64,000 bases of DNA from Chromobacterium paludis. GTDB taxonomy: Bacteria; Pseudomonadota; Gammaproteobacteria; Burkholderiales; Chromobacteriaceae. The DNA lies in NCBI RefSeq assembly GCF_008275125.1, contig NZ_CP043473.1, forward strand, positions 3,720,001 through 3,784,000. Direction: 5' to 3'. Under the pieces are notes generated by a model that saw only the letters and a program-made list of their open reading frames with translations, did no database searches and was not told the origin of the DNA. Below, piece by piece: positions 21,462 to 23,281 of this stretch. A program made the translations under genes and the position numbers. The stretch's first letter is position 1, and each line of letters begins with the position of its first letter.

Positions 21462-22268
21462 TTACGCCAGGCTGGTGGCCGCATGCCACAGCATGGAAAA
21501 CGATACCGCCGCCACCAGCGCGGCAAAGCCGCGCAACAGCTGGGAGGGTGACAGCCGGTGCACCAGCCGTCGCCCCAGCAGCATGCCGGCCATCGCCGCC
21601 AGCACGAAGCCCATGCTGGGCAGCGCGGGCAACCGCGCGCCATGCCACAGCGCGGACGCCACGCCGCCGCTGCCCACCAGGGCGATCACCAGCAAGGACG
21701 TGGCGACGATGGCGTGCATGCCCAGGTCGCTGAGCCGGCGCAGCGCCGGCACGATGACGAAGCCGCCGCCCACGCCCAGCAAGCCGGTCAGGAGGCCGGT
21801 GAAGGCGCCGACGCCGGCCAGCGCGGCCAGGCTGGCCGGGTTCCAGCGCAGGCGGCCGGTGTCCGGATTCACTTGGCAAACGGCATCCCTGTGCGGCGCG
21901 GCCGCCGTTGGCGCGGCGCGGGCCGCGCGCCAGGAACGGGCCGCCACGATCAGCATGATCAACGCGAACAGCGCGCTCAGCCAGGCCGCCGGCACCTGAT
22001 GCGCCAGGCGGATGCCCAGCGAGGTGAAGGGCACGCCGCTGACGGCCATCAGCAAGGCCGCGCGGTAGCGCACCTGCCGCCGTCGCCAGCCCTCGTAAGC
22101 GCCCAGCGCCGCGCCTGCCACCACGGCCAGCAGCGCCACCGGGGCAGCCTGCGGCAGGCTCCAGCCCTGGGACGCCATCAGGGCGGGAATGGCCAGGATG
22201 CCGCCGCCTGCGCCGGTCAGGCCCAGCACCGCCCCCACCAGTGCGCCCAGGGTCAGCGTCAGCAGCAT
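21462..22268 (-). CDS. TSUP (TauE/SafE) family sulfur-compound exporter
   Basis: Inner-membrane transporter of 268 aa with two repeated halves, each opening with a glycine-rich loop (GAVLGLTGAGGGILAIPAL near residue 10, GLLTGLLGVGGGFVIVPAL in the second half). TSUP proteins export sulfite, thiosulfate or sulfoacetate. It is divergent from the MBL-fold persulfide dioxygenase-like gene, as in bigR-type operons, which supports a sulfur role. The start at 22268 has GGAGGA upstream. A possible leader ORF overlaps the start. Confidence 0.88.
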   Translation of the reverse strand: MLLTLTLGALVGAVLGLTGAGGGILAIPALMASQGWSLPQAAPVALLAVVAGAALGAYEGWRRRQVRYRAALLMAVSGVPFTSLGIRLAHQVPAAWLSALFALIMLIVAARSWRAARAAPTAAAPHRDAVCQVNPDTGRLRWNPASLAALAGVGAFTGLLTGLLGVGGGFVIVPALRRLSDLGMHAIVATSLLVIALVGSGGVASALWHGARLPALPSMGFVLAAMAGMLLGRRLVHRLSPSQLLRGFAALVAAVSFSMLWHAATSLA

Positions 22269-22342
22269 GGCGAGTCCTCCAGGCGCGTTTGGCGCGGATG
22301 CGGGCGGCTGGCGCTGGCCAGGTAGTCTAGAGTGGATGTCAT
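22259..22342 (-). CDS. Possible 27-aa leader peptide overlapping the TSUP gene start
   Basis: Short ORF, ATG at 22340-22342 with GGAG five bases upstream, starting MTSTLDYLAS and ending EDSPCC. Its TGA lies 7 bases inside the TSUP coding sequence, so the frames overlap by 10 bases. It lies in the roughly 97-nt leader downstream of the predicted leftward promoter. The Cys-Cys end is suggestive in a sulfur-regulated unit, but length and composition alone do not prove translation. Confidence 0.35.
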   Translation of the reverse strand: MTSTLDYLASASRPHPRQTRLEDSPCC

Positions 22343-22362
22343 GATGGCTCCAGGAAGATATA

Positions 22363-22400
22363 CTTTACAATATTATATAAATAAATATAATGATGTAAAG
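22363..22400. promoter_or_regulatory. Symmetric divergent promoter/operator between the TSUP and MBL genes
   Basis: A 38-bp near-perfect inverted repeat: outer arms CTTTACA (22363-22369) / TGTAAAG (22394-22400), inner arms ATTATAT (22372-22378) / ATATAAT (22385-22391). Each strand contains TTTACA, a 16-bp spacer and TATAAT, so one palindrome carries two overlapping, opposite sigma-70 promoters. A dimeric repressor would close both at once. BigR/SqrR-like sulfide sensors control similar gene pairs; no such regulator is in this window. Confidence 0.75.
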
Positions 22401-22420: not shown

Positions 22421-23281
22421 ATGCCCGTCCAGATCGCAAGCTTCCATGACGATGCCACCGAGACCATTTGCCATGTGGTGTACGACCAGGCAGGCGGCCA
22501 CGCCGCCATTGTCGACCCGGTGCTGGATTTCGATTCCAAATCCGGCCGCACCGCTCACCGCTTCGCCGACAGGCTGCTGGCCTTCCTCGCCGAGCAAAGC
22601 CTGACCCTGCAGTGGATATTGGAAACCCACGCCCATGCCGACCATCTGTCCGCCGCGGCCTATCTGAAGCAGCGGGCCGGCGGCCGCATCGGCATCGGCC
22701 GCCGCATCGGCGAAGTGCAGGCCGTATTCAAGCGGGTGTTCAATCTGGAAGCGGGCTTTGCTTGCGACGGCTCGCAGTTCGACCAATTGTTCGAAGACGG
22801 CGACGTGTTCCGCATCGGCCAGCTGGAAGCGCGCGTGCTGGCCCTGCCCGGGCACACGCCGGCCGACATCGGCTATCAGGTGGAAGACGCGGTTTTCGTC
22901 GGCGATACGCTATTCATGCCGGACGTGGGCACCGCGCGCTGCGACTTTCCCGGCGGCGACGCCGTTCAGCTGTACCGCTCCATCCGCAAGCTATTGGCGC
23001 TGCCGGACGCCACCCGGCTGTTCTTGTGCCATGACTACCCGCCGCCGGGCCGCCAGCCAGCCTGGTGCGTCACCGTGGCCGAACAGCGACGCGCCAATCT
23101 GCACGCGCGCGACGGCGTGGACGAGGCGGCATTTGTCGCCATGCGCCAGGCGCGCGATGCGACGCTGGACATGCCGCGGCTGATCCTGCCGGCCATCCAG
23201 GTCAATATCCGCGCCGGCCAATTGCCGCCGGCCGAGGACAACGGCGTGCGCTACTTGAAGCTGCCGCTGGACGCGCTGTGA
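22421..23281 (+). CDS. MBL-fold persulfide dioxygenase-like protein (ETHE1/Blh family)
   Basis: Metallo-beta-lactamase-fold protein of 286 aa. The metal motif T-H70-A-H72-A-D74-H75, then H145 (LPGHTPADIGY), D162 (FVGDTLFMPD) and H204 (CHDYPP), matches the ETHE1/persulfide dioxygenase branch, as does GTARCDFPGGD. These iron enzymes oxidise glutathione persulfide to sulfite. The TSUP gene opposite could export the product. Start with GGAG upstream. Its end overlaps the convergent Sel1 gene by 31 bp. Confidence 0.88.
   Translation: MPVQIASFHDDATETICHVVYDQAGGHAAIVDPVLDFDSKSGRTAHRFADRLLAFLAEQSLTLQWILETHAHADHLSAAAYLKQRAGGRIGIGRRIGEVQAVFKRVFNLEAGFACDGSQFDQLFEDGDVFRIGQLEARVLALPGHTPADIGYQVEDAVFVGDTLFMPDVGTARCDFPGGDAVQLYRSIRKLLALPDATRLFLCHDYPPPGRQPAWCVTVAEQRRANLHARDGVDEAAFVAMRQARDATLDMPRLILPAIQVNIRAGQLPPAEDNGVRYLKLPLDAL

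Follow-up and report, generated by a model that had tools for sequence, protein, structure and literature searches.

The 38-bp palindrome at 22363-22400 of the window, the whole 64-kb stretch of Chromobacterium paludis DNA analyzed here, is very probably (we estimate about 85%) a BigR operator laid over two divergent sigma70 promoters, from which BigR acting in trans would silence both adjoining genes and persulfide or sulfide would release both. In this model each operator half-site holds the -10 box of one promoter. When sulfane sulfur is lacking, a BigR dimer bound to 22370-22393 would cover both -10 boxes and both genes would be silent. Oxidation of the two BigR cysteines by persulfide or sulfide would make the repressor leave the DNA, and a dioxygenase converting GSSH to sulfite would then be made together with a TSUP exporter, which probably carries sulfite out. 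BigR would be supplied by a bigR-yeeE-yeeE gene group 82 kb away, the promoter of which appears to have a similar operator over an overlapping divergent promoter pair. BigR binding, repression, the nature of the inducer, the transcription starts and the substrates are all predictions from sequence comparisons.

The palindrome reads CTTTACA-AT-ATTATAT-AAATAA-ATATAAT-GA-TGTAAAG. Its 16-nt arms (22363-22378 and 22385-22400) are separated by 6 nt and are 88% complementary, with two mismatched pairs (22370-71 versus 22392-93). As an earlier sequence-only reading had stated, both strands read TTTACA-N16-TATAAT and each -10 box lies inside the 16-bp spacer of the opposite promoter. The sigma70-like promoter of the persulfide dioxygenase gene spans 22364-22391 on the plus strand (TTTACA 22364-22369, TATAAT 22386-22391), and that of the TSUP gene spans 22372-22399 on the minus strand (TTTACA 22399-22394, TATAAT 22377-22372). 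Each has one mismatch to consensus, and transcription would be expected to start at about 22398 for the dioxygenase and about 22365 for the TSUP gene. A search of the whole window for TTGACA/TATAAT that allowed up to two mismatches over both boxes together and spacers of 15-19 gave six promoter-like matches (two on the plus and four on the minus strand), and the sole mutually nested pair was that at 22363-22400. To assess chance expectation, dinucleotide shuffles were made both for the full 152 bp between the genes and for the 49-bp AT-rich island alone. A nested promoter pair as good as the natural one was found in 0/5000 shuffles of either kind. Any nested pair within the mismatch limit appeared in 0/5000 intergenic and 3/5000 island shuffles, and the palindrome score was equalled in 1/2000 and 7/2000, respectively. 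The symmetric nested promoter pair is real and goes beyond chance.

The sequence-only reading had also named the genes served as a TSUP exporter and a persulfide dioxygenase-like metallo-beta-lactamase protein, and both assignments held. The TSUP/TauE-type exporter (268 aa) is encoded at 21462-22268 on the minus strand and matches PF01925 with 155 bits (E 3e-45). The plus-strand gene at 22421-23281 encodes an ETHE1-like persulfide dioxygenase of 286 aa with a metallo-beta-lactamase fold, which matches NF040641, the Blh model, at profile positions 143-423 only, with 396.9 bits and thus below the cut-off of 625; for comparison, the Blh of S. medicae reaches 776.5 bits over positions 2-423. The C. 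paludis protein lacks the sulfur-transferase part found at the N-terminus of Blh and is thereby distinct from bifunctional Blh, in which a sulfur-transferase is fused to ETHE1. Nearly full-length alignments were obtained with PDB entries 9g8t (390 bits) and 4ysk (378 bits), the latter of which we take to be the persulfide dioxygenase of P. putida. The closest named relatives are the proteins of Chromobacterium sinusclupearum (83%) and C. vaccinii (79%). Further downstream, a Sel1-repeat gene on the other strand lies between the dioxygenase gene and a serine acetyltransferase gene (PF06426, 24028-24810, plus strand) that begins 0.75 kb past the dioxygenase gene.

On the TSUP side, transcription from the presumed start would reach a leader ORF of 27 aa (22259-22342, minus strand) after about 23 nt, and the stop codon of this ORF overlaps the beginning of the TSUP gene. 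Leader ORFs of 11-27 codons, sharing frame and stop position relative to TSUP, were present in 10 of 11 Chromobacterium TSUP loci (all except L110). Among congeners, the leader begins at different distances from the TSUP start (74, 56, 50, 47, 44 and 26 nt) and the peptide sequence is not conserved, with 6 of 11 ending in Cys-Cys. This arrangement suggests a translated leader that is coupled to TSUP.

The proposal of a BigR/SqrR-type switch with a regulator encoded elsewhere gained support from the comparative evidence. Among nine HTH_5 matches in the genome, the search for an ArsR-type BigR/SqrR homologue found one at 3824533-3824835 of the same contig (1429-1734 of locus L001), some 82 kb from the palindrome. 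Over 98 residues its product aligns with BigR of X. fastidiosa (3pqj, E 3.6e-25), and both sensor cysteines (Cys42 and Cys108 in X. fastidiosa) are aligned with 3pqj and with 13ct, an ArsR chain that is presumably SqrR. This product is the BigR homologue considered below. By sequence the homologue is an ArsR winged-helix protein (PF01022, 50.2 bits, cut-off 22), and it scores 103.6 bits against the NCBIfam equivalog NF040642, below the cut-off of 155. We therefore class it as BigR-like by sequence and outside NCBI's narrow equivalog. Both cysteines are kept in 70 of 72 dioxygenase-linked BigRs, the alignments of the remaining two ending early, and the string RQPTLSQQLGVLR of the C. paludis protein, which we take to be the BigR-family recognition helix, is the commonest variant (32 of the 72). 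Two YeeE/YedE-type genes come after bigR, and a YgaP-like membrane gene is divergent from it. The genome also encodes a protein with an ArsR-type domain and a C-terminal part resembling a rhodanese domain by eye (L003, 1264-2055), which is possibly another sulfur sensor.

The surroundings of the dioxygenase gene were compared in 110 loci, 80 named and 30 others (12 from the genus and 18 from the family, these covering a portion of the family matches). As some regions are present in both locus collections, the 110 loci are not all independent. In 73 of the 110, bigR is the nearest divergent neighbor of the dioxygenase gene (within 450 bp). A TSUP gene takes this position in 20, of which 13 are Chromobacterium records, and neither gene does so in the remaining 17. 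In five of nine plasmid clusters the dioxygenase gene is divergent from bigR-yeeE-yeeE, followed in one of the five by TSUP. In Chromobacterium the cluster appears to have been split into bigR-yeeE and a divergent dioxygenase-TSUP pair at separate places. Five Pseudomonas loci (L048, L057, L063, L070, L080) have divergent TSUP and dioxygenase genes and no bigR in the stretch examined. A block like GGCTGGTCAGCGCAGGGAAAATGAAACTACCCTC upstream of the dioxygenase gene is common to all five by eye and is perhaps the site of another regulator.

An operator motif was learned by palindromic expectation-maximization from the AT-rich islands of 61 non-redundant bigR-dioxygenase intergenic regions, none from Chromobacterium; 12 of the 73 bigR-linked intergenic regions were left out as near-duplicates (L037, L045, L046, L136-L140, L142-L144, L152). 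An attempt with whole intergenic regions and an AT-rich background was discarded, having learned GC-rich coding composition. The resulting motif, aACAnTATATnnatnnATATAnTGTt (ACAnTATAT-N6-ATATAnTGT), reached a log-likelihood of 457 versus 29 with shuffled islands and gave negative scores to 2 of the 61 islands used in training. Applied to the window, it placed its best match at 22369-22394 with 18.7 bits, the next places having 7.8 and 0.3 bits, and this score was equalled in 0/1000 island shuffles. The candidate BigR-type operator core defined by this motif from other genera, ATATTATAT-N6-ATATAATGA, covers 22370-22393 with half-sites at 22370-22378 and 22385-22393. Both -10 boxes fall within half-sites, so that the putative operator covers the -10 region as judged from predicted starts. 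The second-best position in the window (start 22354, 7.8 bits) would correspond to a possible third half-site at 22354-22363, 15 bp upstream. This match is weak, as the operator resembles itself in part when displaced by 15. With the third half-site included, the plus-strand -35 box would fall in the N6 gap between half-sites. The motif matches support the view that the palindrome owes its symmetry to a BigR-type operator, the two -10 boxes being parts of its half-sites.

After a second training on 48 loci without presumed Neisseriales (identified by record title or family search), the site at 22363-22400 was still the top of the window (17.3 bits versus 6.3 for the next), and the best place lay upstream of bigR in 17/17 congener loci whose BigR homologue is 67% identical or more (14.2-19.6 bits). 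The bigR locus L169 gave 17.4 bits when scored as a whole. Beyond the training set, 19 plasmid-borne bigR loci were hand-picked from 497 records, several of them close kin to one another or to training genera. In 16 of these 19 the top-scoring place in the full locus was positive (6.6-18.9 bits) and lay in the bigR or blh-bigR promoter region; the three plasmid loci lacking a positive motif site are all alphaproteobacterial. The positive loci include S. medicae, the BigR of which lies above the NCBIfam cut-off (176.4 versus 155). The motif is AT-rich and matches do occur in AT-rich DNA, for example 12.2 bits in L185. Used as a pattern with at most three mismatches, it found three places in the 4.28 Mb of the genome and none when the pattern was reversed. 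The three are the dioxygenase/TSUP palindrome, the bigR promoter, and position 4231917, rejected as an operator with 1.4 bits in the weight matrix. Two other genome places with two mismatches were likewise dismissed (-0.2 and 4.9 bits).

That the element is a chance resemblance in an AT-rich intergenic island is extremely improbable. AT-rich promoter regions do yield weak palindromes and -10 boxes, and the island shuffles produced the occasional nested pair, but none as good as the natural one and none with its motif score; conservation of the core in relatives and the motif sites at congener bigR promoters already contradict such an origin as well. Nor is the palindrome likely to be the operator of another regulator, such as a FisR-type activator or the second small ArsR protein of this genome (L002, 1396-1692). 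The latter is 36% identical to BigR and has one cysteine near its C-terminus, and ArsR matches of this type (35-37% identical to BigR) are found in 19/19 congeners. However, the motif was learned where BigR itself adjoins and recurs at the congener bigR promoters, the 3.1-kb locus of the second ArsR protein has no such site (best -7.9 bits), and the intergenic DNA contains good sigma70-like promoters.

The BigR operator reading was followed through the genus set of 19 species, 12 of which have the dioxygenase, with TSUP divergent in 11 of the 12. The operator core, ATTATAT-N6-ATATAAT, is kept in 7 of the 12 (13.1-18.7 bits); the lowest value, that of L115, was obtained on the whole intergenic region and became 11.7 bits with the motif trained without Neisseriales. 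Exact TTTACA on both strands was found in C. paludis and its nearest relative (G002) only, that is, in 2 of the 12. The conserved symmetry is thus that of the operator and the -10 boxes, and it is probably functional. Hence the exact strand symmetry emphasized in the sequence-only reading stands for the operator core and the -10 boxes and falls for the outer -35 arms; a functional role for exact -35 symmetry was dropped, as relatives do not keep these arms. Four congeners (G007, G008, G017 and G018) have a different palindrome upstream of the dioxygenase gene (L109, L112, L113, L114), AATATACT-TATAAC-AGTATATT or a near variant. With -1.2 to -5.5 bits it is rejected by the motif, although the bigR promoters of these four keep a motif site. 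This palindrome may reflect a regulator switch or an altered register. Of the 12 genomes with the dioxygenase, 11 encode a BigR of at least 76% identity; one of the seven other genomes does so too, and five of these seven have a 67% homologue. The species with the dioxygenase and no TSUP gene in its 3.9-kb locus (G011) has neither a close BigR (best 36% identity) nor an operator, and may be regarded as one natural test in favor of the BigR operator.

The E. coli biotin operator is a single palindromic operator over two overlapping divergent promoters and is served by BirA. It differs from the C. paludis palindrome in its regulator, BirA instead of ArsR/BigR, and in its operator sequence. A bidirectional promoter without a dedicated repressor, in which a near-symmetric -10 element gives the symmetry and polymerase competition sets the output, would also account for the layout. 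Such promoters are common in E. coli and, according to the available text of Warman et al. (2026, PMC12825309), are likewise pseudo-symmetric and fire divergently with mutually exclusive polymerases. In that class a single -10 element serves both directions and the distance between starts is commonly 18, 10 or 23 bp (PMC12825309), whereas the palindrome has two -10 boxes 14 bp apart and predicted starts about 33 bp apart. Moreover, the palindrome accompanies bigR across genera and its core is kept among congeners while the -35 boxes drift, and we consider this explanation very unlikely. Mutual exclusion of the polymerases is sterically plausible from the geometry; it may matter little, since in the same account none of the five bidirectional promoters tested had enough basal activity for polymerases to compete (PMC12825309).

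The system closest to a BigR operator of this kind is the bigR operon of X. fastidiosa and A. tumefaciens (bigR, blh and a TauE-type exporter). In the available text of PMC5823870, the two-cysteine ArsR-family protein BigR recognizes the -10 region of its own operon, loses DNA binding on exposure to H2S or polysulfide, and has a sulfur dioxygenase and TauE as targets, the TauE proteins of bigR operons being sulfite exporters. The motif also lies upstream of three plasmid blh-bigR operons, two of them rhizobial by name. C. paludis differs in that bigR is unlinked, the targets are divergent, the dioxygenase is without the sulfur-transferase part and one site would serve two genes. SqrR of Rhodobacter capsulatus, YgaV of E. 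coli and HlyU of Vibrio resemble the C. paludis BigR in regulator family and in the two cysteines, as far as the text of PMC12423496 describes them. The sites given for two of them differ from the palindrome, the deduced SqrR site being ATTC-N8-GAAT (PMC9774250, available text) and that of HlyU TAATTCAGACTAAATTA (PMC4330345, available text).

The relation between operator and promoters was considered across genera. The half-site ATATAnTGT includes a -10-like hexamer. Flanks were counted in 67 of 68 loci entered, one being left out with less than 8 bits or too little flank. Both half-sites provide a -10 box within one mismatch in 41 of the 67, a descriptive figure that is partly built into the motif, and a -35 box within two mismatches is present on both sides in 23, versus 7.1 expected with shuffled flanks. 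This -35 count and the registers described next serve as the actual tests. Among 62 loci (the 61 of the training set plus C. paludis), the best divergent pair has a distance between its -10 boxes of 29 bp in 21 and of 14 bp in 15, C. paludis being one of the latter; other distances occur in 13, and 13 have no divergent pair. Shuffled islands gave, per 62-locus set, 0.45 loci at 29 bp and 0.72 at 14 bp, and no pair in 37 of 62. The register of a single locus depends on scoring (29 or 14 for L146, 16 or 29 for L060); totals alone were used. The bigR promoter region of C. paludis has the 14-bp register too (TTGATT-N17-TATATT and TTGACT-N16-TATTAT).

Outside the site, 27% of flanks have an extra half-site in the same orientation at an offset of exactly 15 bp, other offsets from 1 to 25 accounting for at most 1% each, and half-sites in the opposite orientation reach 7-8% at offsets 1, 11 and 14. 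Plasmid loci with a second-best place 15 bp away were not counted here, as a shifted site partly matches itself. Half-sites 15 bp outside the site are common, and half-sites therefore tend toward a 15-bp grid. As we read the sequences, two half-sites bordered on the outside by the -35 boxes would make up the 14-bp register, and three half-sites with the -35 boxes in the 6-bp gaps would make up the 29-bp register. As a tentative idea, somewhat short of an even chance in our estimate, BigR and RNA polymerase might share the 15-bp grid, with -10 boxes in the half-sites and -35 boxes in adjoining 6-bp gaps, divergent promoters being limited to the 14- and 29-bp registers and promoters fitted to the grid being silenced on both strands; once BigR has gone, polymerases would compete, coupling persulfide oxidation and sulfite export from one 38-bp element. 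The open-licence papers searched yielded no description of a BigR half-site grid or of BigR in Chromobacterium; the original BigR papers of 2007 and 2011, outside that scope, may already describe the operator. The new part is the coincidence of half-site and -10 box with two preferred registers across genera.

Taken at this strength, the comparison provides a concrete and testable model of the BigR operator that would reach beta-, gamma- and some alphaproteobacteria and offers a reason for the strand symmetry of these promoters. The occurrence of two discrete registers makes co-evolution of repressor and promoter on one palindrome directly testable. For Chromobacterium, the model predicts a BigR regulon comprising the dioxygenase, TSUP, bigR-yeeE and the YgaP-like gene, despite the lack of linkage between the regulator and its targets.
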